DNA from: Candidatus Methylomirabilota bacterium
GTDB lineage: Bacteria; Methylomirabilota; Methylomirabilia; Methylomirabilales; Methylomirabilaceae
Length of the DNA stretch: 17,052 nt
Direction of reading: 5' to 3'
Assembly (NCBI GenBank): GCA_028869615.1
Contig: JAGWRQ010000022.1
Location: 1 to 17,052, forward strand
The notes beneath the pieces were generated by a model. It did not search any database and was not told the DNA's origin. It saw only the letters and a list, made by a program, of their open reading frames with translations. This document shows, in pieces, positions 1 to 15,310 of this stretch. The translations under genes were made by a program, and so were the position numbers. Position 1 is the stretch's first letter. The number at the start of each line of letters is the position of its first letter.

Positions 1-1776
1 GCCCGCCACACCGAGACCCTCTCGTACAGCGAATTCAAGGTACTCTTGAAAGCCGGCAAGGTAGAAGACTTGGCCCTCGGGACGCGTATCATCTCCGGGC
101 GGCTGAAACGGGATGGGCTGGGAGGTCTTCTCTCCAAAGAGAAGGTGGAGGAGATTGAACGGGTGACGACCGGTGGAGAGCTTCGCTTCGTGACCATCAG
201 AGTCGACGATCCGACCCTCATCCAGGAATTGGAGGCGTTGAAGGTACGTTTTGCCGGCGAGGTGGAGAGCACGTGGTTTATTACCCTGCTCTCCTGGGTG
301 CTCCCTGCTCTGATCTTCGTTGGTGTGTGGATGTTTCTCATGAAGCGAGTCGGGGGGCCGGCGAGCGGTCTGATGGCGATCGGTAAGAGTAAGGCTAAAG
401 TGTACATGGAGAAAGAGACCGGCGTGACCTTCGCGGATGTGGCGGGGATCGACGAGGCGCGCGCTGAGCTGATGGAGGTCGTTGAATTTCTGAAGACGCC
501 CGAGCGGTACCGCCGCCTTGGGGGAAAGATCCCCAAAGGGGTCCTGATCGTCGGGGCTCCGGGGACCGGGAAAACGCTGTTGGCCAAAGCCGTAGCCGGG
601 GAGGCAGGGGTTCCATTCTTCAGCATGAGCGGGTCGGAGTTCGTCGAGATGTTCGTGGGGGTCGGGGCGGCTCGGGTACGGGACCTCTTCGCCCAGGCTC
701 AGGAAAAAGCCCCCTGTATTATCTTCATCGATGAGCTGGACGCCCTCGGAAAGGCTCGTGGGCTCAACCCGATGGGCGGACACGATGAACGTGAGCAGAC
801 CCTCAATCAACTGCTGGTGGAGATGGACGGCTTCGACACGAACAAGGGGGTGATCATCATGGCCGCGACGAACCGCCCGGAGATCCTCGATCCGGCCTTG
901 CTCCGCCCCGGGCGCTTCGACCGCCACGTGGCCCTCGACCGCCCCGATATCAGGGGACGGGAGAAGATCCTCCGGGTGCATGTCAAGCCGGTCAAGCTCG
1001 CTCAGGAGGTGGACCTCTCGGCCATCGCCGCGAGGACCCCGGGATTTGTCGGTGCCGATCTGGCCAACTTGGTGAACGAGGCGGCGCTGCTTGCTGCGCG
1101 GAAGGGCAAGGATGCGGTGGAGACGGCGGATTTCGATGAGGCCATCGACCGGATCGTGGCCGGCCTCGAGAAAAAGACACGGGTGATGAATCCCGTGGAA
1201 AAGGAAACGGTAGCCTACCATGAGGCCGGCCATGCCCTGGTGGCGGAGTCCCGTCCTCACGCCGACCGGGTCTCGAAGATCTCCATCATCCCGCGCGGCG
1301 TGGCCGCGCTCGGCTACACGCAGCAGTCGCCCACAGAGGATCGGTACCTGCTGAAGAGGGCTGAGATACTCGACCGACTCGACGTGTTGCTGGGGGGTCG
1401 GGTGGCCGAAGAGATCGTTTTCGGGGACGTCTCTACCGGGGCGCAGGATGATCTGCAGCGGGCGACCGATATGGCCCGCCTCATGGTGACCCAGTACGGG
1501 ATGAGCGAACATCTAGGCTTGGCGACGTTTGAAGAGCCGCGCACCTCCCCATTTCTCAACATTGCGAAGCCTCAAAGAGTACGAGAATATAGTGAGCAGA
1601 CTGCTCAGACGATTGATGAGGAGATCAGAAAGCTCCTGGCCGATGCCCACACCCGAGTCGAGCAGACGCTGGCCACCAGGCGCAACGAGCTGGACGCGCT
1701 GGCCAAGCTGCTGCTGGAAAAAGAGGTCGTCGATCGGGAGACTCTGACGCAACTGCTTCAGCCCCAGAGGCCCTAG
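1..1776 (+). CDS. ftsH: ATP-dependent zinc metalloprotease FtsH (5' end outside window)
   Basis: Membrane-anchored AAA+ protease that unfolds and degrades misfolded or short-lived membrane and cytosolic proteins as a hexamer. The frame is open from base 1, and the codons before the TTG at 46 read as the usual FtsH periplasmic segment ([14 protein letters not shown]), so the TTG is an internal Leu and the true start lies upstream. 591 residues are visible; the first membrane helix and perhaps 20-45 residues are missing. In order: periplasmic segment, second membrane helix (277-339), Walker A GAPGTGKT (553-576), pore loop FVGVG (652-666), Walker B ending IDE (to 735), arginine-finger region RPGRFDR (904-924), zinc site HEAGH (1219-1233) and the third zinc ligand Asp in GAQDD (about 1450). 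All key residues are intact. The beta-propeller gene follows after a short gap. Family identity is certain; only the N-terminus is unknown. Confidence 0.97.
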
Positions 1777-1847
1777 AAACCAAGATCCACAGGAGGGGAA
1801 CTGGAGATTCAAGCATGGAAGCCGGTAAACGAGAGGGGAGGGGCGGC

Positions 1848-2957
1848 ATGCCGATAATCCGGCGCGCCGTGCATATCGGCATCGTGACGTTGGCGTCGCT
1901 GCTGGTCGTTCGCTCTGCCGCGCTCGCGCACGGGGCAGGTGTGCACGGCACGCAGGCGCTTTATGTCGCGAATGAGGGCTCGGATACGGTCTCGGTTATG
2001 GATCTCGGGTCGATGAAGGTGACCGGCACCATTGCTGTGGGTTCCGGCCCGCAGGATGTCGCAATCAGCCCGGATCGGCGTTTCGCCTTTGTCACGTGTA
2101 GCCGTTCGGCTGACGTTTGGATTCTGGCCTTGCCCGCGCACACCGTCGTTGCCACGGTGTCCAATGCGACCGGCCCAGGGGGCCAGACGGTTTTTGGAGC
2201 CGGCGCGACCTATGCCTACGTGACCAACAGTCTATATAGCCGAGTTACAGTAATTGAGACCGCTACCGGAAAGAAGGTGGCGATGATCCCGGTGGGAGAA
2301 GCGCCGACCAAGATCAGCATCTCCCCGGATGGCAGCCATGCCTATGTTCCCAGCGAGCGATCCCATACCGTCGCTACGCTGAACCTTTCGCTGAATGTCG
2401 TCGCGGCGGAGCTACCGATCGCAGTGAGGCCCTATGCCGTCGAGATCTCTCCCGATGGCAAGTACCTGCTGGTCTCCAGTCCTGATTCAAACACTGTCAC
2501 CGTCATCGAGGCGGCCACTCAGATGTCGTTGCGCAGGATCCCCGTCGGTGACGATCCCCATCACGTGATATTTGGCCCAGGCGGAGCTTTTGCATATATT
2601 CTAAATAGGGGTTCGGATAGCCTGAGCGTGATCCAGATGGCGAATCGTCAGGTGGTGGCGACCATCCCCGTGGGGAAGGAGCCGAGTGACGCCGACATCA
2701 CCCCGTCCGGCCACTACATCTATGTGACCAACATGGGAAGCGGCGACGTGTCGGTCATTTCGACGCTCACCAGCGCCGTGGTAGGGACGATCCCTGTAGG
2801 AACCCGTCCCCACGATATCGTCATCTCGGGTGACGGACGGTACGGCTTTGTGGCCAATACCGGATCGGATGATATCTCCGTGATCAACCTGCTGTCCCAG
2901 ACAACGGTGGGGCGAGTACCTGTCGGCAAGCGCCCCCGTGGGATGGCCCTCTGGTAG
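1848..2957 (+). CDS. Exported YVTN/YncE-type beta-propeller protein
   Basis: Secreted or periplasmic repeat protein of the YncE/YVTN (surface-layer-like) beta-propeller class, which usually serves as a binding scaffold; ligand unknown. From the ATG at 1848 the product has a typical signal peptide: basic start MPIIRR, hydrophobic stretch IGIVTLASLLVV, and a likely cut after SAALA. The rest is eight units of about 42 residues with the pattern Y-V-x-N-x-G-S-D-x-V-S-V-I then IPVG-x-x-P then ISPDG; unit 2 is the most diverged. The last unit ends at GMALW, which could close the ring with the first unit. An in-frame ATG at 1815 adds 11 residues; I prefer 1848 because GGGGAGGGG (1835-1843) lies just before it and the signal peptide is then of normal length. 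No catalytic motif is visible. It lies between ftsH and the CBS/oxidoreductase genes, with only 10 nt to the next start. Confidence 0.88.
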   Translation: MPIIRRAVHIGIVTLASLLVVRSAALAHGAGVHGTQALYVANEGSDTVSVMDLGSMKVTGTIAVGSGPQDVAISPDRRFAFVTCSRSADVWILALPAHTVVATVSNATGPGGQTVFGAGATYAYVTNSLYSRVTVIETATGKKVAMIPVGEAPTKISISPDGSHAYVPSERSHTVATLNLSLNVVAAELPIAVRPYAVEISPDGKYLLVSSPDSNTVTVIEAATQMSLRRIPVGDDPHHVIFGPGGAFAYILNRGSDSLSVIQMANRQVVATIPVGKEPSDADITPSGHYIYVTNMGSGDVSVISTLTSAVVGTIPVGTRPHDIVISGDGRYGFVANTGSDDISVINLLSQTTVGRVPVGKRPRGMALW

Positions 2958-2967
2958 GTCGCATCAG

Positions 2968-3381
2968 ATGACGCAGCTTTCAGAGATCATGAATCGGACG
3001 CTCATCACCGTTGATACGCGTACTTCCCTGCGTCGAGCTCAACGAATGCTGGATCAGCATAAAATCCGCCATCTGTTTGTGATGGACGGCAAGCGTCTGG
3101 TGGGGATCGTTACCGATCGCGATCTTCGAAAGGCCGCTCCCTCTTCCAAGTCGCCTTTGACGACCAGTGAACGCGAGGAGTTCATGGATGAGTTGAAGGT
3201 TGTGGAGGTGATGTCGCGCAAGCTGATTACGGCCTTGCCTACGACCACTGCGCGGGAGGCAGCGAAGGTGATGGTTCGGGAGAAGATCGGCTGCCTGCCG
3301 GTAGTGGATGGCAATACACTGGTTGGGATCGTGACCGAGACCGATCTGCTCGAGATACTGGTCCGGGGAGAGGCATCATGA
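2968..3381 (+). CDS. Tandem CBS-domain protein upstream of the oxidoreductase
   Basis: Small protein (137 aa) made only of two CBS motifs, a module that usually binds AMP, ATP, NAD(P) or SAM and regulates a partner. CBS 1 runs from about residue 4 (SEIMNRTLITV) to the GIVTDRDLRKAA stretch; CBS 2 runs from VVEVMSRKLITA to GIVTETDLLEIL. The G-I-V-T-D/E-x-D signatures fit the adenosine-nucleotide binding type. I chose ATG 2968 over the in-frame GTG at 2938 because the latter lies inside the propeller gene and adds a non-CBS tail (GWPSGRSHQ). The stop overlaps the next start as ATGA (3378-3381), which points to translational coupling with the alpha/gamma oxidoreductase subunit. It closely resembles the CBS part of the CBS-ACT protein at 14659, sharing the K-A-A-P-S segment, so the two are probably paralogues. 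Ligand and partner are inferred. Confidence 0.9.
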   Translation: MTQLSEIMNRTLITVDTRTSLRRAQRMLDQHKIRHLFVMDGKRLVGIVTDRDLRKAAPSSKSPLTTSEREEFMDELKVVEVMSRKLITALPTTTAREAAKVMVREKIGCLPVVDGNTLVGIVTETDLLEILVRGEAS

Positions 3382-5336
3382 CCAGCGAGCGATTTCGTTT
3401 TCCAGGCATTCCGGCCACAGCGGACGGCTCGGCGGCAGTGGTCTGGGTGGACTCGCATATTACGCAAGGCGCCTGCGCCTATCCGATTACCCCCTCCACC
3501 AACATGGGGACCGGATACCAGGCGGAGGTCGCGAACGGCGCACGCAACCTCTGGGGTGAGCCGCTCTTCTTCCTCGAGCCCGAGTCGGAGCATAGCTCCG
3601 CCTCCGCGTGTGAGGGGTTTGCCCTGGCCGGTGGGCGGGTCTCGAACTTTACCTCCGGCCAGGGGCTGGTCCTGATGAAGGAGGTCCTCTACACCATCGC
3701 AGGGAAGCGGCTCCCGGCGGTCTTCCACATCGGCGCCCGCGCGCTGACCTCTCAGGCCCTGAACGTCCACGCCGGTCATGACGACGTGATGGCCGTGGCG
3801 GATGTCGGTTGGGGCATGCTCTTCGCCAAGAACGCTCAGGATGCGGCCGATCTGGCGCTCATCGCCCGCCGCGCCGCCGAGGAGGGGGAGACCCCCTTCA
3901 TGACCGTACAGGACGGTTTCCTCACCACCCATACCATTGAGAACCTCCTGCTTCCGGAACCGGAGCTGATGAAGGAGTTCATCGGGGACCCGTATGCCGG
4001 CACGCGCCTGCGCAACCTTATGAACCCGTTGCAGCCGATCATGAGCGGGGTTGTGCAGAATCAGGACAGTTACATGAAGGGCAAGATCGCCCAGCGGTTT
4101 TTCTACGATCGGCTGCCGGCGATTGTCGAGGGAGCCATGGAGCGGTTCTACTCCCTGACGGGCCGCCGGTATGGTCTGGTGGAAGCGTACCGGCTGGAGG
4201 ATGCCGACTACGCCATCGTAGGGATGGGAGGGATGGTCGAGACCGCCATGGCGACCGTTGATTATTTACGACTGCACCGCGGCGTTCGAGCGGGTGCCCT
4301 CCACGTGACATGCTTCCGTCCATTCCCAGGCCCGCAGATCGTCGAGGCGACGAAGCACCTGAAGGCGATGGCTGTGATCGAGCGTATGGACAACCCGCTG
4401 GCCGAATCGAATCCGCTCACTGCCGAGATCAAGGCGGCGTTCGCCGATGCGCTGACGGGTACGCCGGGGTTTCCGCCCGTGGGTCGGATACCGATCGTCT
4501 ATTCCGGTTCGGCCGGACTGGGCAGCCGGGATATCCGTCCCGGCGACCTGGTGGTCGCGATAGACAATATGCGCCGCGACGATGGCGGGTCTCGCTACTT
4601 CGTCGTGGGGATCAGGCACGACCTGGCGCTCGTGCCATCCGAAGATCCGGACGTCCGGCCGGCCGGGACCTTCTCGATGCGCGGCCATTCGGTCGGCGGC
4701 TTCGGATCGGTGACGACCAACAAGGTGATCGCCACGATTGTCGGCGATCTCTTCGGCTTGAAGGTTCAGGCCTACCCGAAGTATGGCTCCGAAAAAAAGG
4801 GGCTGCCTACCACTTACTATCTGACCGTGGCCAAGGAGCGGATCCGTACCCATTGCGAGCTGACGCAGGTCGATTTCGTGCCCCTTAACGACATCAATGC
4901 GTTCAACCTCGGCAACCCGCTGGCCGGCTTGGCGACAGACGGCATGGTCTTCATCCAGACCGACAAAAAGACACCGGAGGAGGTCTGGACGCGGATCCCT
5001 GACTATGCGAAGCGGATCATCCGGGAACGCCGTATTCGGGTCCTTGCCCTGGACACTGTGAAGATTGCGCGCGAGGTCGCCAGTTCTGCAGACCTGGAGC
5101 AACGAATGCAGGGGATTGTCCTCTTGGGGATTTTCCTCCGCTGCACGCCGTTTCTCCGCGAGCAGCGCCTGTCCGAGGCGCAGGTCTTCTCGGCGGTAGA
5201 GCGGTCGCTGCGGAAGTATTTCGGCAAGCGGGGCGAACAGGTGGTGCAGGACAATTTGGCCGCAGTGAGGCGAGGCTATACCGAGGTGTTTGAGGTCCCA
5301 GTGGAGACGATGGCAGAGGCGGGATTGATCGGCTGA
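3378..5336 (+). CDS. 2-oxoacid:ferredoxin oxidoreductase, fused alpha-gamma subunit (PFOR domains I-III)
   Basis: Half of a TPP-dependent enzyme that interconverts a 2-oxoacid (pyruvate most likely) plus CoA with acyl-CoA, CO2 and reduced ferredoxin. Residues 1-250 resemble PFOR domain I: YPITPST (Thr38, like the substrate-binding Thr31 of Desulfovibrio PFOR), SEHS with Glu71 (like Glu64, which activates TPP), and GARALTSQ with Arg121 (like Arg114, which holds the carboxylate). Residues 265-420 are domain II. Residues 430-600 are the gamma domain III, opening with MRGHSVGGFGS and containing YPKYGSEKKG. The 652 aa length matches PFOR domains I-III (about 627). GGAG at 3367-3370 precedes the ATG, which overlaps the CBS stop. 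Domains IV-VI are on the protein at 5796, so an active enzyme needs both chains. Pyruvate specificity is suggested by the conserved Thr/Arg pair but not proven; another 2-oxoacid is possible. Confidence 0.93.
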   Translation: MTSERFRFPGIPATADGSAAVVWVDSHITQGACAYPITPSTNMGTGYQAEVANGARNLWGEPLFFLEPESEHSSASACEGFALAGGRVSNFTSGQGLVLMKEVLYTIAGKRLPAVFHIGARALTSQALNVHAGHDDVMAVADVGWGMLFAKNAQDAADLALIARRAAEEGETPFMTVQDGFLTTHTIENLLLPEPELMKEFIGDPYAGTRLRNLMNPLQPIMSGVVQNQDSYMKGKIAQRFFYDRLPAIVEGAMERFYSLTGRRYGLVEAYRLEDADYAIVGMGGMVETAMATVDYLRLHRGVRAGALHVTCFRPFPGPQIVEATKHLKAMAVIERMDNPLAESNPLTAEIKAAFADALTGTPGFPPVGRIPIVYSGSAGLGSRDIRPGDLVVAIDNMRRDDGGSRYFVVGIRHDLALVPSEDPDVRPAGTFSMRGHSVGGFGSVTTNKVIATIVGDLFGLKVQAYPKYGSEKKGLPTTYYLTVAKERIRTHCELTQVDFVPLNDINAFNLGNPLAGLATDGMVFIQTDKKTPEEVWTRIPDYAKRIIRERRIRVLALDTVKIAREVASSADLEQRMQGIVLLGIFLRCTPFLREQRLSEAQVFSAVERSLRKYFGKRGEQVVQDNLAAVRRGYTEVFEVPVETMAEAGLIG

Positions 5337-5364
5337 GAGTTCGAACACCAAAGAAGGAGAGCTG

Positions 5365-5760
5365 ATGGCGGAGGAGTTGGTGAGAGACTGGATGCACCGG
5401 GGTGTGATCACCTGTGGACCCGAGACGCCCATCCAGACGGTGGCCGACGCAATGAAGGCGCACGACATCAGCGCCTTGGTGGTGGTGGACGAGGCAGGCG
5501 ACGCGATCGGCGTGATCTCCCGCACCGATCTCGTCAATGCTCGGTTTGTCGAGCCGTATCTCAAGCACTGGCGGGGACTCACCGCCAAGCACCTGATGAG
5601 CGCTCCGGTCATCAGTGTCTCGGATGCCACGCCGCTTGCTGAGGCGGCGGCGCGGCTCCGCGACAGGAAGATTCACCGGGTAGTGGTGACCGAGAGACGC
5701 GGGCCACACGAGAAGCCGATCGGCATCCTCTCGGTGACCGATTTGGTGGGGAAATTGTGA
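5365..5760 (+). CDS. Tandem CBS-domain protein between the two oxidoreductase halves
   Basis: A 131-residue protein consisting of two CBS motifs. CBS 1 covers about residues 5-60 (VRDWMHRGVITCGP to GVISRTDLVNA); CBS 2 covers about 74-131 (AKHLMSAPVISVS to GILSVTDLVGKL). Start ATG 5365 has AAGGAGA (5354-5360) at good spacing. It is clearly different from the CBS proteins at 2968 and 14659: no K-A-A-P-S segment and a short linker with EPYLKHWRG. It sits exactly where a one-chain NifJ/PFOR would continue from domain III to IV, 28 nt after one subunit gene and 35 nt before the other, so co-expression with the enzyme is very likely. By analogy with CBS modules that control IMP dehydrogenase or AMPK, it may regulate the oxidoreductase according to adenylate level; that is inference. 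Confidence 0.9.
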   Translation: MAEELVRDWMHRGVITCGPETPIQTVADAMKAHDISALVVVDEAGDAIGVISRTDLVNARFVEPYLKHWRGLTAKHLMSAPVISVSDATPLAEAAARLRDRKIHRVVVTERRGPHEKPIGILSVTDLVGKL

Positions 5761-5795
5761 CAGTATAAGAGCAGTATCATAAGGAAGGTTCAGCC

Positions 5796-7478
5796 ATGGC
5801 AGATCACGAGCCGGCCTATAACCCTCTCGATGAGGAGCACGTCGAACAGGTCGCGGGGACGAAGCCTCGCGGGCTTGAGAAAGCGATCCACGAGAGCGCC
5901 TTGCCCCAGACCGGGGTTCTGGAACTTGATCTTGAGCGATACGTGGGCGATTTCAACGAGCGGATCATCGGGGCCTACGCGGCCGGGACCGGAGAGCAGA
6001 CTCTGCCCGCTGATGTCGGGGTGGCCCGCAGCCTGATCCCGCCCGGGACCGGCGCCCTGCGCGACTTCAGTTACATTGCGCCGGAGATCCCCCGGTTCGA
6101 CCGGGAGCGATGCGTCGGCTGCATGGCCTGTGTCACGGAGTGTCCCGACACCGCCATCCTGGGCAAGGCGATCCCGAAGTCGCGCGTGGAGGCCGAACTC
6201 AACCTCATCGCCGACGATCAGGAGCGTGAGGGAATTCGGGCTCAGTGGGCTGTGACGAGGAAATACTGTGAGGTCTACGAGAAGAAGGGCGAGGAAGGCG
6301 CCCTGTTCGGTATCTTCGTCGATCCGACCAAGTGCAAGGGGTGCGCTGAGTGCGTTGAGGTCTGCGGGGCCCTCGGCTATCATGCCCTCACGATGGTGAA
6401 GAAGGACGAGCAGACGCTCCCACGCTATCGAAACTACTTTAACTTCTTTCGGCAAGTTGGCGCCACACCACGTGAATATATCAATGAGCGGGCGCTGGCG
6501 GACATGATGCTGTCCGAGGAGGCGCTCCTCTACGTCGGCGGCGCCGGCTCGTGCATGGGGTGTGGCGAGGCGACGGCGATCCGGATGATGCTGGCCGCTA
6601 CCGGATTCGTCCATGGCGCGGAGCAGGTGGGGATCGTGGCGGCGACAGGGTGCAACACGGTCTACGGTTCGACCTATCCGTACAACCCGTTCCTGGTTCC
6701 CTGGACCAACTCGCTGTTCGAGAATGCGCCGGCCGTGGCGATGGGGGTCCGCGCCAAGTGGGACCAACGGGGATGGCAGGAGAAGAAGCTCTGGGTCATT
6801 GGAGGGGACGGCGCGATGTACGATATCGGCTTCCAGGCGCTGTCGCGGATGCTGGCCTCCGGGATGGACATCAACGTGCTGATCCTGGATACACAGGTCT
6901 ACTCCAACACGGGAGGACAGGCCTCCACGGCGACCTTTACCGGGCAGGATGCCAAAATGGCCGTGTTCGGCAAGACGACGCCCGGCAAGCAGGAGCGGCG
7001 AAAGGAGCTGGCGCTCATCGCCATGATGCACCCGGATACCTTCGTCGCGCAGACCACGGCGGCCCACATTAACCATTTTTACCGAGCCATCATGGCGGCC
7101 AATGAGTACCCGGGTCCGGCCGTGGTCAATGTCTACACGACCTGTGAGCCCGAGCATGGCGTGGCGGACGACCGCTCCTCGTGTCAGGCGAAGCTGGCGG
7201 TCGATGCTCGGGCCTTCCCGCTCTTCATGTACGACCCACGCAAGGGAGAGAGGATCAAAGAGCGACTCAGCCTGGCGGGTAACCCCGCAATGGGTGAGGA
7301 CTGGTACAGACTGCCTCGCACAGGGGAAGTAGTCGACTTTATTGCTTTTGCCAGGACGGAGGGCCGTTTCGCGAAACAGTTCGACCCGGAGGGCTGCCCG
7401 TCTGATACCCTGCGCTACGCCCAAGCCGAGCGGCTGCAGTACTGGCGACGCCTGCAAGAGTTGGCCGGCATCCGATAA
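5796..7478 (+). CDS. 2-oxoacid:ferredoxin oxidoreductase, fused ferredoxin-TPP (delta-beta) subunit (PFOR domains IV-VI)
   Basis: The electron-transfer and TPP half of the enzyme begun at 3378. Residues 1-100 resemble the short PFOR linker domain IV, ending in IAPEIPRFD. Residues 101-200 are a two-cluster ferredoxin domain: Cys106/109/112/116 and Cys180/183/186/190, the second ending CG instead of the usual CP. Residues 245-470 are the TPP domain: SCMGCGE (Cys253, Cys256), ATGCNTVYGS (Cys286) and YTTC (Cys450) supply the four ligands of the proximal [4Fe-4S] cluster, GGDGAMYD starts the TPP-Mg motif, and VYSNTGGQ holds the active-site Asn371. KLAVDARAFPLFMYDP (466-481) matches the end of NifJ-type PFORs. 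The extra C-terminal domain VII of Desulfovibrio PFOR appears absent. Start ATG 5796 follows AAGGAAGG (5781-5788). All cluster and TPP residues are present, so the enzyme looks functional. Confidence 0.94.
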   Translation: MADHEPAYNPLDEEHVEQVAGTKPRGLEKAIHESALPQTGVLELDLERYVGDFNERIIGAYAAGTGEQTLPADVGVARSLIPPGTGALRDFSYIAPEIPRFDRERCVGCMACVTECPDTAILGKAIPKSRVEAELNLIADDQEREGIRAQWAVTRKYCEVYEKKGEEGALFGIFVDPTKCKGCAECVEVCGALGYHALTMVKKDEQTLPRYRNYFNFFRQVGATPREYINERALADMMLSEEALLYVGGAGSCMGCGEATAIRMMLAATGFVHGAEQVGIVAATGCNTVYGSTYPYNPFLVPWTNSLFENAPAVAMGVRAKWDQRGWQEKKLWVIGGDGAMYDIGFQALSRMLASGMDINVLILDTQVYSNTGGQASTATFTGQDAKMAVFGKTTPGKQERRKELALIAMMHPDTFVAQTTAAHINHFYRAIMAANEYPGPAVVNVYTTCEPEHGVADDRSSCQAKLAVDARAFPLFMYDPRKGERIKERLSLAGNPAMGEDWYRLPRTGEVVDFIAFARTEGRFAKQFDPEGCPSDTLRYAQAERLQYWRRLQELAGIR

Positions 7479-7546
7479 AGACGGATGTATGACGCACTAC
7501 AGTAGGGAAATAGCTGAACACCGCGAGACGGAAACACTTCCATTTT

Positions 7547-7561
7547 CCCGCCGCTGGCGGG
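7547..7561 (+). other. GC-rich hairpin just before a Usp ribosome binding site
   Basis: CCCGCC (7547-7552), loop GCT, GGCGGG (7556-7561): a perfect 6-bp stem in the 101-nt gap between the oxidoreductase and Usp genes. It ends 5 nt before a near-perfect Shine-Dalgarno, AAAGGAGGTT (7567-7576), for the ATG at 7580. No T-run follows, so it is not a classical terminator. It could be an mRNA processing, stability or translation-control element. Function inferred. Confidence 0.4.
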
Positions 7562-7579
7562 TGGCTAAAGGAGGTTCCA

Positions 7580-8086
7580 ATGATTACACTCAAGAATATC
7601 CTTGTACCGACGGACTTTAGCGAGACCTCGAAGGCGGCGGTTACGTATGCTCGGGAGCTCGCCTCCACGTACCACGGCTCGGTGCATCTCCTGCACGTGT
7701 TGCCGGATCCCGCGGTTCAGCCTTGGGCGTTCGCGGTCGAGACTGAGGCTATGGGGCTGTCATTCCCGGAGCGGGTGAAGCGGTGGGAGGAGAGGGCAAA
7801 CGCGCAGATGAAGAATCTGCTCTCGGAGACGGAGCGGAAGGAACTGCATGTGCGAACTGTGGCGCAGGTGGGCCATCCAGTCCAGCAGATTCTTCAGTAT
7901 GCAAAAGACCAGACGATCGATCTCATCGTGATGGGGACAACCGGTCGAGGTACCCCGGCGCCCGAAACGTTCGGGGCATTCCCAAGGCATTCACCGATGG
8001 GCAGTGTCGCCGAGCGAGTGGTTCGCCAAGCCCCGTGTCCGGTCCTCATCGTTCGACATCCGGAGCACGAGTTCGTTACGCCCTAG
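7580..8086 (+). CDS. Universal stress protein (UspA family) with a widened nucleotide loop
   Basis: Single-domain Usp of 168 aa. The start MITLKNILVPTDFSETSKAAVTY is the classical Usp first strand and helix, and the C-terminal part has IDLIVMGTTGRG, then GSVAERVVRQAPCPVLIV. In ATP-binding Usps the loop reads G-x2-G-x9-G-S/T. Here about 17 residues (rich in P, F and A) separate GTTGR from GSVAERVV, against 8 in the canonical Usp at 9911, so about 9 extra residues sit in the nucleotide loop. ATP binding may therefore be changed. The Shine-Dalgarno at 7567-7576 is the strongest in the window, suggesting high expression. It follows the oxidoreductase operon by 101 nt and a hairpin lies 24 nt after its stop, so it is probably the last gene of that unit. 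Usps are tied to survival in stress and anoxia; the target here is unknown. Confidence 0.93.
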   Translation: MITLKNILVPTDFSETSKAAVTYARELASTYHGSVHLLHVLPDPAVQPWAFAVETEAMGLSFPERVKRWEERANAQMKNLLSETERKELHVRTVAQVGHPVQQILQYAKDQTIDLIVMGTTGRGTPAPETFGAFPRHSPMGSVAERVVRQAPCPVLIVRHPEHEFVTP

Positions 8087-8110
8087 ACGTCTTCCGTAAA
8101 GCGTAAGCGG

Positions 8111-8139
8111 CTGGCGTCGGCCCTCTAGTCCGGCGCCAG
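8111..8139 (+). terminator. Possible transcription terminator hairpin (no T-tract)
   Basis: CTGGCGTCGG (8111-8120) pairs with CCGGCGCCAG (8130-8139): ten pairs including one G-U, with a 9-nt loop. It begins 24 nt after the Usp stop codon, where a terminator would be expected. The bases after it (CGCAGGGCG) contain no U-run, so it is either a weak or factor-assisted terminator or a 3'-end stabilising stem. Confidence 0.4.
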
Positions 8140-8281
8140 CGCAGGGCGAATCGGGACACCGTGGCCTCTTGCTGGCTTGCCGACGTCGCCGCTTGCTCCA
8201 CACTGACTCTTCTCGGATTGATTGTCCTGGCTGTGGGGCTGGTTCAGCAATCAGAACGATTCGGCTCGACTCCGTGGTGTG

Positions 8282-8299
8282 TAGCGTATTGATATGCTA
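8282..8299. promoter_or_regulatory. Operator-like palindrome over the -35 element
   Basis: TAGCGTAT-TG-ATATGCTA is an 8-2-8 inverted repeat with one mismatch (G against T), as expected for a dimeric helix-turn-helix regulator site. It covers the proposed -35 hexamer (8289-8294) of the radical SAM gene, so binding would probably repress transcription. I do not recognise the motif as a known site; it does not fit the FNR consensus. Confidence 0.35.
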
Positions 8300-8317
8300 T
8301 GCTTAGATAAGTATTAC
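8289..8317 (+). promoter_or_regulatory. Candidate sigma70 promoter for the radical SAM gene
   Basis: TTGATA (8289-8294, 5 of 6 to TTGACA), a 17-nt spacer, then TATTAC (8312-8317, 4 of 6 to TATAAT). It lies in a locally AT-rich stretch about 130 nt upstream of the radical SAM start. Transcription would begin near 8323. Predicted by eye only. Confidence 0.45.
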
Positions 8318-8337
8318 TCCCCTGTTGTGTGGGAGTA
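8315..8337. promoter_or_regulatory. Perfect inverted repeat at the predicted transcription start
   Basis: TACTCCC (8315-8321) and GGGAGTA (8331-8337) form a perfect 7-bp inverted repeat around 9 nt. It overlaps the proposed -10 element and transcription start, which suits a DNA operator better than a complete RNA hairpin. No T-run follows, so it is not a terminator. Confidence 0.35.
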
Positions 8338-8443
8338 CAGCGAGTGAAGATCATGAATCGACCGATCCGGAGTCGGATAAGCAAGGCTCGGACCAGGGTC
8401 CGGGTGGGAAAGAGGTCAGGCATCAAGCTGCCGAAGGAGGGGT

Positions 8444-9559
8444 ATGTATCCTGTTATTACTGGCTTTGATCATCTGGTCTTCGCCGAGGCGCCCAAGCTG
8501 ATCTATTGGGAGCTGACGCGGGCCTGCGACTTGGCATGCACGCATTGTCGCGCCGAGGCCATTCCGGCGCGCGACCCATTTGAACTGAGCACGGAGGAGG
8601 CCAAGGCGCTGTTGGCGCAGCTTCGGGCGTTCGGCGACCCGCCCCCGCAACTGGTCATGACCGGAGGCGACCCGTTGAAGCGTCCGGATTTCTTTGATCT
8701 GGTGCGGCATGGCAGAAGCATTGGGATGCCGATATCCGTGGCCCCGAGCGGTACTCCACTGCTCACACCGGACGCGATCTCAGCTCTGGCGGAGAACGGC
8801 GTCATGAGTATGTCGCTCAGCATCGACGGCGCAACGGCCGAGAGCCACGATCGGTTTCGCGGGGTTGCAGGCTGCTTCGATACGACCATGCGCGCCATCC
8901 AGGCTGTTCGGGCGGCAGCGATCCCGTTGCAGATCAACACCCTTGTCACCCCCGAAACCATGACGGAACTACCCGGTGTATTCCGGTTGCTGAAGGACCT
9001 GGGGATCATGCGGTGGAGTCTCTTTTATCTGATCGCCACGGGGCGCGGTCGGGCCCTCCGCGAGATCAGACCCAGCGAGGCCGAGGCGCTTCATAGCTGG
9101 ATCTACGACATCGTCAAGACGGCTCCATTCGCCATCAAGGCGACGGAGGCCCCGCACTTTCGCCGCGTTGCCTACATGCGAATGCGGCTGGAAGGCCTGG
9201 ATGACGCTGCCATCCGGCAGACACCCATCGGGCGGGGGTTCGGAATCCGCGACGGGAACGGTATCATGTTTATCTCGCACACCGGGGATGTCTATCCGTC
9301 CGGGTTCCTGCCGGTGACAGCCGGGAACGTGCGCCAACAAAGCCCTGTATCGTTATACCGTCATTCAGAGGTTTTTACGCGCCTCCGCGACGCGGATCAA
9401 TATGCCGGCAAGTGCGGCCTCTGCGAGTTTCGCTGGATCTGTGGCGGGTCGCGGGCCCGCGCGTTTGCCGAGACCGGCGACCCCAATGGAAGCGATCCGC
9501 TGTGCGCCTATAGGCCGGAGGCCGCGCTGGTAGGGGCGGCGGACAGCAGTCGAGGATAA
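8444..9559 (+). CDS. Radical SAM/SPASM-type protein (TIGR04053-like, related to NirJ/AhbD)
   Basis: 371-residue radical SAM enzyme. The SAM cluster motif is CDLACTHC (Cys28, Cys32, Cys35), followed by MTGGDPL, the usual SAM-contacting GGD/GGE segment. The C-terminal region has Cys324, Cys327, Cys333 and Cys354 in the pattern C-x2-C-x5-C-G-G-S-R-A-R-A then DPLC, consistent with one auxiliary [4Fe-4S] cluster. YPSGFLPVTAGNVR (about 284-297) lacks the extra Cys seen in full two-cluster SPASM proteins. This layout resembles the NirJ/AhbC/AhbD group (heme d1 and alternative heme synthesis) and above all the TIGR04053 subgroup, whose reaction is not established to my knowledge. Start ATG 8444 has AAGGAGG (8434-8440) close upstream, and a TAA at 8378 bars any longer version. 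It stands alone, with long spacers on both sides and its own candidate promoter. Substrate unknown. Confidence 0.9.
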   Translation: MYPVITGFDHLVFAEAPKLIYWELTRACDLACTHCRAEAIPARDPFELSTEEAKALLAQLRAFGDPPPQLVMTGGDPLKRPDFFDLVRHGRSIGMPISVAPSGTPLLTPDAISALAENGVMSMSLSIDGATAESHDRFRGVAGCFDTTMRAIQAVRAAAIPLQINTLVTPETMTELPGVFRLLKDLGIMRWSLFYLIATGRGRALREIRPSEAEALHSWIYDIVKTAPFAIKATEAPHFRRVAYMRMRLEGLDDAAIRQTPIGRGFGIRDGNGIMFISHTGDVYPSGFLPVTAGNVRQQSPVSLYRHSEVFTRLRDADQYAGKCGLCEFRWICGGSRARAFAETGDPNGSDPLCAYRPEAALVGAADSSRG

Positions 9560-9910
9560 GCGCGGCCAATAGCCTGGGAAGAGTGTAGCTCCACGGATTA
9601 GATCTGCGATTCTCACACGTTACGTGCATCGACCTCTGAGAGGTGAGGTGCCGATACTTCACCAACGTGGTCTTCAACAGTGGTCGGCTATGACGGCTGA
9701 TCGAACACCCCTATTTATTCCCTCAATCTACCCAATTAGGCATGCAGATGCTCTAGCCGATTGGTGGTATCTGGCATAAATTGTGTGTAGGAGATGCGGC
9801 GCTATAAGCATCGGGCCGACAGCCTGTGAGGAGTTTATGGCGCATCTGCAGGGACGGAAGGTCACGTAGTGCAGCCGACCCAAAGGCGGCGCAGCCGACA
9901 GGAGGGACGA
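9560..9910. other. Gene-poor spacer (351 nt) upstream of the stress operon
   Basis: No convincing gene is seen. Short symmetric elements are present: palindrome CACGT-T-ACGTG (9616-9626), hairpin ACCTC-TGA-GAGGT (9632-9644), and two copies of GCAGCCGAC 20 nt apart (9871-9879 and 9891-9899) just before the Shine-Dalgarno of the next gene. A candidate promoter lies at 9781-9808. A 10-codon frame (ATG 9837 to TAG 9869) with GAGGAG before it could be a leader or chance. Confidence 0.55.
9781..9808 (+). promoter_or_regulatory. Candidate promoter for the Usp/Hsp20/MAT gene run
   Basis: TATAAG (9803-9808) matches 5 of 6 bases of the -10 consensus; TTGTGT (9781-9786) 16 nt before it is a weak -35 (3 of 6). 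It would give a leader of about 95 nt before the Usp start at 9911. Judged by eye; another sigma factor may be used. Confidence 0.3.
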
Positions 9911-10369
9911 ATGCAGATCTCACGGATCCTTTTTCCGACCGACTTCTCCCATGATGCCGGGCACGCATTCCAGTATGCGCTCACCTTTGCCCGCGAGTTC
10001 GGCGCCGAACTCTACCTGCTTCACGTCATCTACTTCCCCCCCCAGACGCCTGAGTACGACATCGGACAGGTCATCGACAGCCTGGTCAAGAATGCTGAGG
10101 ACAGCTTGAAAAAGCTGGTCGACAGCGCCAAAGAGCCGAACGTGGTCTTCCGTACGGACGTGCAGGTCGGGGTGGAGCACGCCGAGATCACGAAATTCGC
10201 TGAGAGGGAAAAGATCGATCTCATCGTGATGGGGACCCGCGGACGAACCGGGCTGGCGCATGTCTTTCTGGGAAGTGTCGCCGAGCGGGTGGTGCGTCAT
10301 GCCCACTGTCCCGTCCTGACCGTCAAGCTCCCGGCACGGAAAGGCGAAGAGGCAGCGAAAGAGGGGTGA
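9911..10369 (+). CDS. Universal stress protein (UspA family), canonical ATP-binding type
   Basis: Single-domain Usp of 152 aa. It opens with MQISRILFPTDFSHDAGHAFQYAL and ends with IDLIVMGTRGRTGLAHVFLGSVAERVVRHAHCPVLTV, containing the full G-x2-G-x9-G-S loop typical of ATP-binding Usps. ATG 9911 is chosen over the in-frame GTG at 9869 because AGGAGGG (9900-9906) sits directly before it and the extra 14 residues (PTQRRRSRQEG) do not belong to the fold. It is the first gene of a run of closely spaced genes reaching the end of the window, so it probably leads a stress operon; a candidate promoter lies about 100 nt upstream. The next gene begins within 5 nt of its stop. Confidence 0.95.
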   Translation: MQISRILFPTDFSHDAGHAFQYALTFAREFGAELYLLHVIYFPPQTPEYDIGQVIDSLVKNAEDSLKKLVDSAKEPNVVFRTDVQVGVEHAEITKFAEREKIDLIVMGTRGRTGLAHVFLGSVAERVVRHAHCPVLTVKLPARKGEEAAKEG

Positions 10370-10374
10370 GTGAC

Positions 10375-11493
10375 ATGACGGTGCAGCACAGGGCGCTGGC
10401 ACGATACCTCGAGACGACCCTTGGTGGCGTCGTACAGGTGCAGGCCGTTCGGCCACTCACGGGCGACGAGCCTTCCATCGTTGGGAAGGAGCTGGGAGCG
10501 CTGCAGAGTCACGATCTGAAGGCGTTCGGCTACGGCCGGCCGATCCAGATTGACCTGCTCCTGAACGGCATCCCTCGCTCCTACGTGCTTTCCACGATGC
10601 GGGGCGGCCCAGGCTTTGGTCACGATCACAAGGCCGACAGGGCGGGTACCTTGATCTGGGCGCATGACGCCTACGGTAAGCTGGCGCACCACGTGGAGAG
10701 CGTTGACGTCGGCTTCTTCACGCAGGAAGGTCAGTTGCAATCGGCCGGGCGCGCAGAGGAGTACTTCCTCCTGATGGAGAAAGTCGAAGGGGCCGCGTAT
10801 TGGCTGGATCTGGAGCGGATTCAGGCGGAGGGGAAGGCGACCGATCTGGATTTCGACCGCGCCAGGGTCCTGTCGGAATATCTGGCCAAGATCCACGCAC
10901 AGAAAGGCCAGGATGAACAACTGTATTTCCGTCGGATCCGGGATCTGATCGGCCATGGTGAGGGGATCATGGGGATCCTTGACGGCTATCCGGCCGAGTA
11001 CCCCCTCCTCCCTTCCAAACAGCAGTACGTCGTCGAGAGCGGATGTGTGGCCTGGCGACAATACCTGAAAGAGAAGACTGCGCGCCTGAGCATCGTCCAT
11101 GGGGATTTTCACCCTTGGAACATCCTCTTTCGAGAGGAGACCGATTTCACGCTGCTCGATCGGAGTCGTGGAGAGTGGGGGGAGCCTGCCGATGACATCG
11201 CGGCCCTCACCATCAATTTTCTTTTCTTCTCGCTCTTGCGGTCGGGTCGGCTGGAGGGGCCGTTCCGGGAGCTGTTTGATCTCTTCTACGGCGCGTACCT
11301 TGAGCGGACCCGCGATCTGGAACTGAACTCCGTGATCCCGCCCTTCTACGTCTTCCGGGCCCTGGTGATCGCGAGCCCGCGTTGGTACCCCGACCTTCCG
11401 GAGGATGTGCGCGCCAAGCTGTTCCGGTTCGTCCGGACGATGCTCCGGATCGAGCAGTTCGATCACGAGGATCTCAATCGATATCTGATGTGA
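10375..11493 (+). CDS. APH-fold phosphotransferase-like protein
   Basis: 372-residue protein of the aminoglycoside-phosphotransferase/protein-kinase-like fold. The catalytic loop HGDFHPWN (11098-11121) is intact, with Asp at 11104 and Asn at 11119. The metal-binding Asp that follows is in LLDRSRGEWGEPADDIA (Asp at 11158), although the usual aromatic or acidic residues after it are replaced by R-S-R. No membrane segment is seen. ATG 10375 is preferred, with GAGGGG (10361-10366) 8 nt before it; a GTG at 10366 overlapping the Usp stop is an alternative that adds three residues. It is followed after 9 nt by an APS-kinase-like P-loop protein, and the same two activities are fused in one chain in some bacteria. 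An antibiotic-resistance role is unlikely in this setting. Substrate unknown; a sugar, nucleoside or protein is possible. Confidence 0.82.
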   Translation: MTVQHRALARYLETTLGGVVQVQAVRPLTGDEPSIVGKELGALQSHDLKAFGYGRPIQIDLLLNGIPRSYVLSTMRGGPGFGHDHKADRAGTLIWAHDAYGKLAHHVESVDVGFFTQEGQLQSAGRAEEYFLLMEKVEGAAYWLDLERIQAEGKATDLDFDRARVLSEYLAKIHAQKGQDEQLYFRRIRDLIGHGEGIMGILDGYPAEYPLLPSKQQYVVESGCVAWRQYLKEKTARLSIVHGDFHPWNILFREETDFTLLDRSRGEWGEPADDIAALTINFLFFSLLRSGRLEGPFRELFDLFYGAYLERTRDLELNSVIPPFYVFRALVIASPRWYPDLPEDVRAKLFRFVRTMLRIEQFDHEDLNRYLM

Positions 11494-11502
11494 GGCGGTC
11501 GG

Positions 11503-12069
11503 ATGGCGTGGGTAGCGTGGTTCACAGGACTGCCCGGAAGCGGCAAGAGCAGCGTGGCATGCGAGGTCGCATTGCGCCTGCGGGCGCGTGGAATGCGGGT
11601 GCGGATGTTGGAACTCGATGAGATCCGACGGGTGGTGACCCCCTCGCCACGCTATACGGCTGAGGAACGCGAGGTCGTCTATCGCGCCCTGGCCTATATG
11701 GCGTGGCTTCTCTACAACGAGGGGATAAGCGTCATCATCGATGCGACCGGCCACAGGCAGCGGTTTCGCGATGTCGCCCGCGCGCTGATTCCTGCCTTTG
11801 CTGAGATCTATCTCTGCGCGTCGTTGCCGACGTGTCGCGCGCGGGCGGGGTATCGGCATGGCGGCTACGCCCCTGCCGATGTCTACGGGCAAGCGGGTCG
11901 CGAGGGATCCACTGTTCCGGGCGTCGATGAGATGTACGAGCCGCCGCGTCATCCTGAGTTGGTGCTTGATACCGAAGCGCTTCAAGTGACGGATGCCGCA
12001 GAACAGGCGGTGAGATTTCTTGAAGCATTTCAGGTCAACCAGGCTGCCAGTATGGTTGAACAGGGATGA
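11503..12069 (+). CDS. APS kinase-like (CysC-related) P-loop kinase
   Basis: 188-residue P-loop kinase. Walker A is GLPGSGKSS (residues 9-17). The C-terminal segment VPGVDEMYEPPRHPELVLDT closely follows the adenylylsulfate kinase pattern (FTGIDxPYExPxxPEL), and VIIDATGHRQRFRD resembles the central strand of that fold. Two points differ from CysC: the D-G-D-N-V-R substrate motif reads ELDEIRR, and the K-G-L-Y-K-K-A-R stretch reads ADVYGQAGR. So it may phosphorylate something other than APS. No other sulfate-assimilation gene (ATP sulfurylase, PAPS reductase) is nearby. ATG 11503 has only a weak Shine-Dalgarno and lies 9 nt after the APH-like gene, suggesting translational coupling. Automatic annotation would probably say adenylylsulfate kinase; I read it as a divergent member. 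Confidence 0.8.
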   Translation: MAWVAWFTGLPGSGKSSVACEVALRLRARGMRVRMLELDEIRRVVTPSPRYTAEEREVVYRALAYMAWLLYNEGISVIIDATGHRQRFRDVARALIPAFAEIYLCASLPTCRARAGYRHGGYAPADVYGQAGREGSTVPGVDEMYEPPRHPELVLDTEALQVTDAAEQAVRFLEAFQVNQAASMVEQG

Positions 12070-12099
12070 TGAGAACAGGCTGACCGCGGAGGGAGAGTG

Positions 12100-12372
12100 A
12101 TGAGCGCGCTGCTGAACCCACGGATGTTGGATTGCGTAAGTGAGCAGGGTGAGCGAAGTCAGGCGTGCCCCTACTTGAAACGAGCAATCCTCACCTCCCG
12201 GTACCCCATCGAGGGATACTGTGTGGGACATCCTCACGGGAGGCTTCGGGTCGTGACGATTGCCGAGTTTCGTGAGTTATGTACAACAGCCGAGCACGTT
12301 CAGTGTCAACTGTATCGCGAGCTGCGCCATCAGGGTCTGGCCGAGGGAGATCCGGAGTGCGGAGCTGCCTGA
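12100..12372 (+). CDS. Small Cys-rich protein, possible metal or Fe-S binder
   Basis: 90-residue protein that I do not recognise as a named family. It has six Cys: Cys12, 23, 41, 61, 69 and 87. The middle four form C-P-Y-L...G-Y-C (23, 41) and F-R-E-L-C-x7-C-Q-L-Y (61, 69), a layout common in small proteins that bind zinc or an iron-sulfur cluster. No signal peptide or membrane segment is seen. GGAGG (12088-12092) lies 7 nt before ATG 12100; a GTG at 12097 adds only one residue. It sits 30 nt after the APS-kinase-like gene and 75 nt before hsp20, same strand. Codon use looks like that of its neighbours, which supports a real gene. Function unknown. Confidence 0.7.
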   Translation: MSALLNPRMLDCVSEQGERSQACPYLKRAILTSRYPIEGYCVGHPHGRLRVVTIAEFRELCTTAEHVQCQLYRELRHQGLAEGDPECGAA

Positions 12373-12447
12373 TGCGGGAGCATGTGCGCAGTCTGGCGAG
12401 CGTCAACTGAAACGAGTGATGGTGAAAGGACAGAAGGAGGAACGACC

Positions 12448-12891
12448 ATGGCGCTCGTAAAGTGGACACCATTCGGCGATTTAACCACGTTCAGGCGAGA
12501 GATGGACCGAGTGTTCGAGCGGTTTTTCGGCGAGTTGCCGCGCCTGGACCTGTCCGGGGCGGGGTGGACTCCGCACCTGGACATGACCGAAACCAAGGAC
12601 CGCGTGATTGTCAAGGCCGAGTTGCCTGGGCTGGACGCCAAAGACCTGGATATCACCATCTCCGGGAACACGCTGAGCCTGAAGGGGGAGAAGCGACAGG
12701 TCAAAGAGGAACATGACGAACACCACCACCTGCTTGAGCGCTCCTATGGGGCCTTTACTCGGACGGTTGAGCTGCCGGCGCCGGTAGCCGCCGATAAAAT
12801 CAAAGCGGCCTTCAAAAACGGGGTGCTGACTATTACCCTTCCGAAGACAGAGGAGGCCAAGCGAAAGGGGATTCCGATTCAGGTTGAATGA
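12448..12891 (+). CDS. Small heat shock protein Hsp20 (alpha-crystallin family)
   Basis: 147-residue holdase chaperone that binds unfolding proteins without ATP and forms large oligomers. The alpha-crystallin domain spans about residues 38-138: PHLDMTETKDRVIVKAELPGL at the start and AAFKNGVLTITLPK near the end, the latter being the A-x-x-x-N-G-V-L hallmark. The tail IPIQVE holds the I-x-I motif used in assembly. The N-terminal arm, with VFERFFGEL, is typical. ATG 12448 has AAGGAGG (12434-12440) at 7 nt; a longer in-frame reading from 12382 would add non-homologous residues and is rejected. No CIRCE-like inverted repeat is seen upstream, and expression probably follows the operon. The next gene starts 10 nt after the stop. 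Confidence 0.97.
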   Translation: MALVKWTPFGDLTTFRREMDRVFERFFGELPRLDLSGAGWTPHLDMTETKDRVIVKAELPGLDAKDLDITISGNTLSLKGEKRQVKEEHDEHHHLLERSYGAFTRTVELPAPVAADKIKAAFKNGVLTITLPKTEEAKRKGIPIQVE

Positions 12892-12901
12892 GGAGCGAGC
12901 G

Positions 12902-13423
12902 ATGAAGACACCCATAGTTGCACGCAGGCGTTACGACACTGCATCGTCTAAAAAGAGCGTGGGGAGCGAGACCGATTCCTACCTGGCCAAGGGAGCGCCC
13001 GGTAAGATGGTGGTGTGTCACGGGTGCCATGCCATCTCAGCGGGGAGGCGATGGTATCAGGATGAGGCGGTCTATGCCAAGCTCCTCAAAACGGGTACGG
13101 TGAAAGAGGTGTACTGCCCGGCGTGTGAAAAGATTCGCGACGGGTATCCGAGCGGGCAGGTGACGCTGAAGGGCCCATTCCTGGCTGAGCATCATGATGA
13201 GATCCTGCGCATCATTACCAACGAGGAGAAACGGGCCCGGGAGCGTAATCCGCTTCACCGGATCATGAGCCTCCGCGAGGAGAACGGGCAGCTTGAGATT
13301 ACGACAACCGATGAGAAGCTGGCGCAGCGGATCGGACGGGAACTCCGCAAGGCCTGCGGGGGGACCGTCGCGTACGGTTGGTCGCATGACAACAAATTCC
13401 TCCGGGTGCAGTGGGAGCGTTGA
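12902..13423 (+). CDS. BCAM0308-family protein with zinc-ribbon-like CxxC pairs
   Basis: 173-residue cytosolic protein resembling the BCAM0308 family, named after a Burkholderia cenocepacia gene. Two knuckles, VVCHGCHAIS (about residues 39-48) and YCPACEKI (about 73-80), probably bind one zinc. GYPSGQVTLKGPFLAEHHDEIL and NPLHRIMSLREENGQLEITTTDEKLAQRIGREL match the family's C-terminal half; the TTTDEKLA-type stretch resembles NMD3-like domains, which suggests RNA or ribosome contact, a tentative link. ATG 12902 has GAGGAG (12890-12895) at 6 nt; the TTG at 12884 would lie inside hsp20 and is rejected. It lies 10 nt after hsp20 and 11 nt before the MAT gene. In B. cenocepacia, BCAM0308 lies in a low-oxygen-activated gene block as I recall, in keeping with its neighbours here. 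Molecular function unknown. Confidence 0.85.
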   Translation: MKTPIVARRRYDTASSKKSVGSETDSYLAKGAPGKMVVCHGCHAISAGRRWYQDEAVYAKLLKTGTVKEVYCPACEKIRDGYPSGQVTLKGPFLAEHHDEILRIITNEEKRARERNPLHRIMSLREENGQLEITTTDEKLAQRIGRELRKACGGTVAYGWSHDNKFLRVQWER

Positions 13424-13434
13424 GGGGTAGATCG

Positions 13435-14637: not shown

Positions 14638-14658
14638 GGCCAAGGAAAGGAGCCGACG

Positions 14659-15303
14659 ATGCGAGTTAAGGATCGAATGAGGCGCTCGCTGGTCAGTGTC
14701 GCACAGACCGACACACTGGATCATGCGCTGACGACGTTGAAGCGGTTCAATATCCGCCACCTCCCGGTGGTCAAAGGAGACCGTGTGGTGGGGATCTTGT
14801 CGGACCGAGACGTGAAGAAGGCCGCCCCCTCTCCCTTTGACTACCCGACCGCGGAGGAGTTCCGGGCCTTTACGTCCGCAGTGACGGTCAAGGAGATCAT
14901 GACCAAAGAGGTGGTCACGGTCGCTCCGCTCACCCCTATCGAGGAGGCAGCCTGTCTGATGAACCAGAAGCGTATCGGTGCGCTGCCGGTGGTCCAGGAG
15001 GGGCGGCTGGTCGGGATGCTTACCGAGACCGATGTCCTTGGTGTCATGACTGAGATGATGGGCGCCACACAGACCGCGTCTCGCGTTGAGATCGAGATTC
15101 CGGTAAGCCCGGGAACGCTCACCGAGGTCATCGGGATCGTCGAGGCGCAGCAGGTGGAGATCGCCAGTCTCGTAACCCTGCCGTACCGTGAGGGGGCGAG
15201 GCGTCTGCTGATCTTGAGGCTTCGAACCATCAATCCGGACCCCGTTGTCAGGGCGTTGGAGGCGCGCGGGTATCCGCAAGTTGTCGGCGAGTTCGTGTGC
15301 TAG
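14659..15303 (+). CDS. CBS-pair protein with C-terminal ACT domain (AcuB-like)
   Basis: 214-residue regulator. Two CBS motifs cover residues 1-60 (VKDRMRRSLVSVA to GILSDRDVKKAAPS) and about 76-132 (VKEIMTKEVVTVA to GMLTETDVLGVM). A C-terminal ACT-like domain covers about 140-205 (RVEIEIPVSPGTLTEVIGIVEAQ..., with RLLILRL). The layout matches AcuB-like proteins, which sense small molecules: adenylates or SAM through CBS and often amino acids through ACT. AAAGGAG (14646-14652) precedes ATG 14659. It lies 21 nt downstream of a SAM synthetase and 7 nt upstream of a tandem Usp. Since CBS domains can bind SAM or ATP and ACT domains often bind amino acids such as methionine, it could sense MAT substrates or product; that is inference. 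Its CBS part is a close paralogue of the protein at 2968. Confidence 0.9.
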   Translation: MRVKDRMRRSLVSVAQTDTLDHALTTLKRFNIRHLPVVKGDRVVGILSDRDVKKAAPSPFDYPTAEEFRAFTSAVTVKEIMTKEVVTVAPLTPIEEAACLMNQKRIGALPVVQEGRLVGMLTETDVLGVMTEMMGATQTASRVEIEIPVSPGTLTEVIGIVEAQQVEIASLVTLPYREGARRLLILRLRTINPDPVVRALEARGYPQVVGEFVC

Positions 15304-15310
15304 TGCCGTG

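Follow-up and report, generated by a model that had tools for sequence, protein, structure and literature searches.

A CBS-domain pair encoded between, or fused to, the chains of a split pyruvate:ferredoxin oxidoreductase is probably an optional regulatory module

Pyruvate:ferredoxin oxidoreductase (PFOR) operates at the pyruvate/acetyl-CoA node and is a source of low-potential electrons. AcuB and DarB are CBS proteins that influence acetyl-CoA or pyruvate metabolism by way of partner proteins (excerpts of PMC13121692 and PMC8822347). In CBS-pyrophosphatase, the CBS pair is an optional regulatory module, and the enzyme also exists without it (excerpt of PMC11172384). In open papers we met no account of a PFOR bearing a CBS module, subscription papers for the most part and bioRxiv preprints being outside the search. 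Here, we analyse a 17,052-nucleotide stretch of a Candidatus Methylomirabilis genome (contig JAGWRQ010000022.1 of assembly GCA_028869615.1; hereafter the window), in which genes for two CBS pairs, CBS1 and CBS2, alternate with those for the two chains of a split PFOR, PorAG and PorDB. We find that CBS2 is very probably a dedicated partner of the split enzyme and that, taken as a whole, the data are best explained if it is an optional regulatory module of that enzyme, a reading we regard as reasonably probable.

All four genes lie on the + strand, closely spaced and in the order CBS1, PorAG, CBS2, PorDB. This confirms the layout proposed in a sequence-only reading of the window.

2968..3381, + strand: CBS1, a stand-alone CBS pair of 137 amino acids (aa) from the ATG at 2968 (Pfam CBS)
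3378..5336, + strand: PorAG, the alpha-gamma chain with PFOR domains I-III, 652 aa (Pfam, 1b0p match)
5365..5760, + strand: CBS2, a CBS pair between the two chains, 131 aa (Pfam CBS)
5796..7478, + strand: PorDB, the ferredoxin (delta) plus thiamine pyrophosphate (TPP)-binding (beta) chain with domains IV-VI, 560 aa

The PorAG start at 3378 overlaps the CBS1 end at 3381 via ATGA, as had been noticed; the CBS1 frame is also open from an alternative GTG start at 2938. The PorAG stop at 5336 is followed by AAGAAGGAGAGCTG and the CBS2 start at 5365, and the CBS2 stop at 5760 by AAGGAAGG and the PorDB start at 5796, which bears out the claim of a CBS gene in the gap between the chains. Each CBS protein contains two CBS domains (Pfam CBS 109.6 bits for CBS1 and 95.7 bits for CBS2; cut-off 24). 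A consensus scan of the + strand from 1600 to 8500 found zero terminator-like sites; the opposite strand of this region had one, against a shuffled mean of 3.5.

We assign CBS2 to the enzyme because its position is conserved, it occurs fused to PorAG, its sequences form one clade, and it diverges together with PorAG. Among 109 genomes with a visible PorAG-PorDB interval, 43 carry CBS2, as a separate gene in 30, fused in 12 and in both forms in 1. The fusions, at the C-terminus of PorAG, are found in Chloroflexota and Planctomycetota (13 genomes fused and 31 separate, one of them both). Their frames span 793-864 aa with zero internal stops, the exception being G1482/L263 (499 aa, contig end), and Pfam finds PFOR domains and CBS together in all three tested of the 13. 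Because fused frames recur in 13 genomes, assembly error is an unlikely cause, though many of the records are metagenome-assembled. Separate CBS2 genes occupy the gap in Methylomirabilota, in Chloroflexota and in a single genome from the phylum to which G098 belongs. In the host genome (2.06 Mb), 25 CBS-domain matches reach E<=0.001; G1276 (~3.0 Mb) has only 5 at E<=1e-8, yet a CBS pair sits exactly in its Por gap. In L224, positions 219-3190 encode PorAG with a fused CBS pair, then a separate CBS2 gene, then PorDB.

Whether fused or separate, all 46 CBS2 sequences fall in one clade that excludes the 46 background CBS pairs (Shimodaira-Hasegawa-like approximate likelihood ratio test 99), in a tree whose CBS2 rows were chosen by position and similarity to CBS2 queries, which favours a single clade. 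The CBS tree has 139 columns and many unresolvable forks, and comes from a quick search without bootstrap; for the first such tree, 102 sequences were thinned to 80 by removing background rows only. Within the clade, the fused Planctomycetota domain joins 11 fused Chloroflexota domains (99). Both CBS pairs of L224 fall outside this group, making a further fusion event likely. Distances between PorAG sequences track those between CBS2 sequences (r = 0.907, n = 33), and within-group correlations also hold; shared descent alone explains part of this. On the PorAG tree (110 split rows), CBS presence and absence require 8 changes, which implies several losses, gains or transfers of CBS. CBS2 thus has both fusion and conserved adjacency with a single clade, either of which we took as the mark of a dedicated module.

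These counts come from samples centred on known enzyme-bearing genomes, and the match rates do not describe phyla. Of 95 Methylomirabilota genomes, 24 contain split PorAG at E <= 1e-120, and 23 intervals were scored for this phylum (16 with separate CBS2, 7 with none). In the phylum of Verrucomicrobia record L057 (288 sampled), 4 genomes matched, one with the split enzyme and three with a one-chain enzyme, and none of 4 Verrucomicrobia intervals has CBS. For the phylum of Planctomycetota record L053 (343 sampled), the 19 matches were 14 split and 5 one-chain, and the 14 intervals 1 fused and 13 without CBS; L165, from this phylum, is cut at a contig end and was judged by one short same-frame PorDB match. 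The phylum of Deltaproteobacterial record L050 (297 sampled) yielded 3 matches, 2 split and 1 one-chain, with one interval holding a separate CBS2 and one none. The Chloroflexota sample around L049 (301 sampled) gave 16 matches and 16 intervals: 13 separate, 1 fused, 2 without. Finally, the Chloroflexota class of G1210 (396 sampled) gave 53 matches, 3 already counted, and the 50 new intervals are 10 fused, 1 fused plus separate, and 39 without. G094, where the contig ends inside PorAG, is excluded from the 109.

A CBS2 hidden in the intervals scored as empty is unlikely, since most gaps could not accommodate a CBS pair. Gaps between matched regions measure 35-220 bases in a 27-locus set (except L156, 1070), 114-271 bases in an 18-locus set (except L234, with PorDB outside the locus; this is L265, gap ~1.4 kb) and ~310 bases or less in the other 21 loci without CBS of the last set. 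The long intervals of L156 (~1.1 kb) and L265 (~1.4 kb) gave no CBS match, though a very diverged CBS could escape. A long PorDB N-terminus was dropped as a mark of CBS, L050 having one without CBS. No CBS module was found in the 11 one-chain relatives examined.

Within the genus, 14 other genomes were searched and 13 Methylomirabilis genomes with the enzyme counted; the closest sequence matches of the window also include named Methylomirabilis records. CBS2 is present in six of these (G000, G003, G004, G006, G008, G013), alone in G008 and together with CBS1 in the other five; four have CBS1 only (G002, G005, G009, G010). In G004, ~3.2 kb of other sequence lies between the PorAG-CBS2 pair and PorDB; this insert (L268 2625-5878) holds long open frames, one of them response-regulator/sensor-like by eye. 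Whole-genome searches of the seven Por-bearing genomes without CBS2 gave no displaced copy, the best match reaching 31.4 bits against at least 243 for orthologues, and relocation of CBS2 elsewhere was rejected on these matches (<=31.4 bits). The complete one-contig G005 has no CBS2 match anywhere; completeness is just 80-83% for G002, G010 and G012. CBS2 is therefore an optional module, not an obligate subunit. The sequence-only reading had assigned both CBS proteins to the enzyme, which is well supported for CBS2 by position, fusions, clade and co-divergence, and not supported for CBS1. The absence from close relatives that it named as contrary evidence does occur in part, with CBS2 missing from 7 of the 13, CBS1 from 4 and both from 3. 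The CBS-porAG-CBS-porDB order, whose conservation it proposed to check, is present in full in 5 of the 13 (G004 with its 3.2-kb insert), and for CBS1 was not seen beyond the genus in loci with upstream sequence.

Two further genes flank the four:

1815..2957, + strand: gene for a YVTN beta-propeller protein, immediately before CBS1
7580..8086, + strand: universal stress protein (Usp) gene, downstream of PorDB (Pfam Usp 110.5 bits)

CBS1 is found upstream of PorAG in 9 of the 13 Por-bearing Methylomirabilis, and its start at 2968 closely follows the YVTN stop at 2957. No displaced CBS1 was detected in Methylomirabilis lacking it (whole-genome searches; best 95.3 bits, against at least 217 for orthologues). 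In G001, which is 81% complete and gave no split Por at E <= 1e-120, YVTN-CBS1 is retained on a 3.1-kb contig, and CBS1 is thus tied to YVTN at least as well as to Por. On that contig (L144), a carboxymuconolactone-decarboxylase-family gene and another CBS gene follow in place of Por. Outside the genus, no CBS1 orthologue was seen beside PorAG in loci holding upstream sequence, and in the CBS tree CBS1 sits among the background pairs, outside the CBS2 clade. In the Rokubacteria-type loci L043 and L045, a CBS gene lies upstream of PorAG at a distance of 1.3 to 2.8 kb; this gene falls in the background part of the tree, apart from CBS1. With neither fusion nor adjacency seen beyond the genus, CBS1 lacks the marks of a dedicated module; it is probably a genus-level neighbour, only co-transcribed with the enzyme and not a module of it.

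The enzyme itself is recognisable in both chains. PorAG carries the Pfam domains POR_N, PFOR_II and POR, and PorDB carries TPP_enzyme_C and several Fer4 (4Fe-4S) families, all above cut-offs. Residues 14-639 of PorAG align to 6-614 of the one-chain PFOR 1b0p (E 2e-82), and PorDB profile positions 43-318 and 326-493 align to 627-879 and 951-1115; 6cin and 9bt4 are further PDB matches of the Por chains. Since PorAG ends at 614 of 1b0p and PorDB begins at 627, the chain break coincides with the III/IV boundary, in what we take to be the domain numbering (I-VI) of 1b0p. The earlier view of the chains as domains I-III (1b0p 6-614) and IV-VI (627-1115) is upheld. PorDB retains two CxxCxxCxxxC motifs, together with four cysteines in its TPP domain; across 11 aligned sequences all of these are unchanged (106/109/112/116, 180/183/186/190 and 253/256/286/450), so that ligands for three 4Fe-4S clusters are present; which set belongs to which cluster is our assumption. 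Judged by these sequence features, the split enzyme is a member of the 2-oxoacid:ferredoxin oxidoreductase superfamily (PFOR/POR), a two-chain 2-oxoacid:ferredoxin oxidoreductase with, most likely, pyruvate as substrate. The YPIT and GARA stretches, which presumably take part in pyruvate binding, are invariant in 15 sequences.

In the PorAG tree, the split forms make one clade, separate from 11 one-chain enzymes (100/100; 100 in a second tree). These trees omit L042, which is too short; L042 and L043 are extra Rokubacteria-type records outside the 109, and the PorAG of L043 is identical to that of L123. One-chain relatives L137 and L139-L142 have frames of ~1550-1800 aa, 39-51% identity to PorAG and inserts in the beta part, L137 also having an extra C-terminal cysteine motif. 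In Rokubacteria-type L043, L023 and L123, a radical SAM gene resembling that of the window lies directly upstream of PorAG.

CBS2 has the two CBS domains and the CBS-pair fold that define a Bateman module. The AlphaFold2 model of the window CBS2 (9 sequences; mean predicted local distance difference test (pLDDT) 86.9, predicted template modelling score (pTM) 0.79) resembles CBS pairs bound to S-adenosylmethionine (SAM)/methylthioadenosine (MTA), AMP, ADP and ATP. A ribose-phosphate motif, G-h-h-S/T-x-x-D/N, given for CBS sites in an excerpt of PMC11172384, occurs at both CBS2 sites in 32 of 34 sequences. The PDB sequence matches 9e6q, 9zni and 9sr9 are multi-CBS chains. Together, the kept motif, the fold matches and the AcuB and DarB precedents favour a nucleotide-sensing regulatory module; from motif and fold, control by AMP/ATP is plausible. 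That CBS2 senses adenine nucleotides and alters enzyme activity seems to us somewhat better supported than the converse, going by motif, model and analogy.

Depending on the lineage, such a module would act as a free subunit or as a domain at the C-terminus of PorAG. Its place would be close to that terminus, next to the junction of PorAG with PorDB: the fused CBS follows directly after PFOR domain III and would therefore be located where PorAG meets PorDB, a geometry that comes from sequence order only. We infer that CBS2 also contacts the enzyme in lineages with separate genes. CBS2 would bind adenine nucleotides in one or both Bateman sites, and through it the adenylate state would raise or lower enzyme activity; our guess as to direction is that AMP and ADP favour pyruvate oxidation. 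A more specific version, in which the adenylate energy charge sets PFOR allosterically and CBS gates electron transfer or domain assembly on AMP/ADP/ATP exchange, is tentative, and the balance tips slightly against it.

Several observations weigh against a regulatory role. Two-thirds or so of the intervals (66 of 109) are without CBS2, including 7 of the 13 Methylomirabilis, so that the enzyme can evidently function in its absence; among all 53 matching genomes in the class of G1210, 12 carry CBS and 41 do not. G007, G012 and G014 have neither CBS gene, which rules out both as obligate subunits. The ribose-phosphate motif lacks specificity: two copies of it occur in 40 of the 46 background CBS pairs. 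The model of the fused protein is poor (mean pLDDT 64, pTM 0.61), and docking cannot be read from it. On TIGR02176, the one-chain equivalog, PorAG scores 376.6 and PorDB 215.5 bits; neither reaches the cut-off of 911.35, and pyruvate as substrate is thus not proven. The fold matches, moreover, leave SAM and adenine nucleotides undistinguished. It is conceivable, then, that CBS2 regulates the enzyme by sensing SAM, cyclic di-AMP (c-di-AMP), diadenosine tetraphosphate or redox state, as CBSX proteins do, which we consider improbable.

Other readings dispense with regulation of the enzyme altogether. CBS1 and CBS2 may merely be members of a stress island (CBS, Usp, Hsp20, FtsH), co-expressed with Por and acting elsewhere. 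Three Usp genes, Hsp20, an FtsH-like gene and a third CBS gene do lie within the same 17 kb, CBS1 persists in G001 where split Por was not found, and CBS genes have been gained and lost within the genus. For CBS1, nothing here contradicts this explanation; for CBS2, it has to contend with the PorAG fusions, a conserved position in several phyla, the single clade and the co-divergence, and for the two proteins together we hold it to be unlikely. Alternatively, CBS2 may be a structural part, serving assembly, oligomerisation or chain joining without ligand control. Its location coincides exactly with the chain break, and the CBS pairs of two subunits can combine into four-domain modules (excerpt of PMC11172384); most split enzymes seen do without it, however, and those that have it keep the motif at both sites in nearly every sequence, which leaves this explanation distinctly unlikely. 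An optional regulatory module thus continues to be our preferred reading of CBS2.

The 5′ part of the + strand order is FtsH-like, YVTN propeller, CBS1, PorAG, CBS2, PorDB, Usp. After this first Usp come radical SAM (TIGR04053), Usp, APH-family, adenosine phosphosulfate (APS)-kinase-like, a small unassigned open reading frame and Hsp20, followed by an NMD3-like gene, a PF01941-family methionine adenosyltransferase, CBS3 and Usp. Positions 7580-16123 form a stress-type island, with three Usp, Hsp20, the APH-family and APS-kinase-like genes, CBS3 and the PF01941-type methionine adenosyltransferase; its gene content is like that of a hypoxia or dormancy regulon. The gene at 12884-13423 encodes a bacterial protein matching the NMD3 family (31.5 bits; cut-off 24.9).

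The position and fusions of CBS2 suggest that nucleotide state may directly control a central reaction. If CBS2 binds nucleotides, the pyruvate/acetyl-CoA node gains allosteric control, which can be tested on single fused proteins. If this is true, the free subunit, the fused domain, the presence of both and the absence of either provide a natural series for the origin of control.

Like the one-chain NifJ/PFOR enzymes (1b0p, 6cin), the split enzyme has the common domain order and cluster cysteines. It differs from them in having two chains, with the break at III/IV, and, in 43 of 109 genomes, in a CBS module that lies between the chains or is fused on. AcuB, a CBS-ACT protein of Bacilli, targets the deacetylase AcuC and carries an ACT domain as well; CBS2, in contrast, consists of nothing but a CBS pair, and its gene accompanies that of the catalytic enzyme or is joined to it. 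DarB/CbpB from Bacillus subtilis responds to c-di-AMP and involves a different enzyme, and the 18 NCBIfam matches of the window CBS2 do not include CBS_CbpB. CBS-pyrophosphatase resembles the present case in having its CBS pair as an optional module, although there the pair is inserted in the catalytic chain, whereas CBS2 either has a gene of its own or is fused at the C-terminus.
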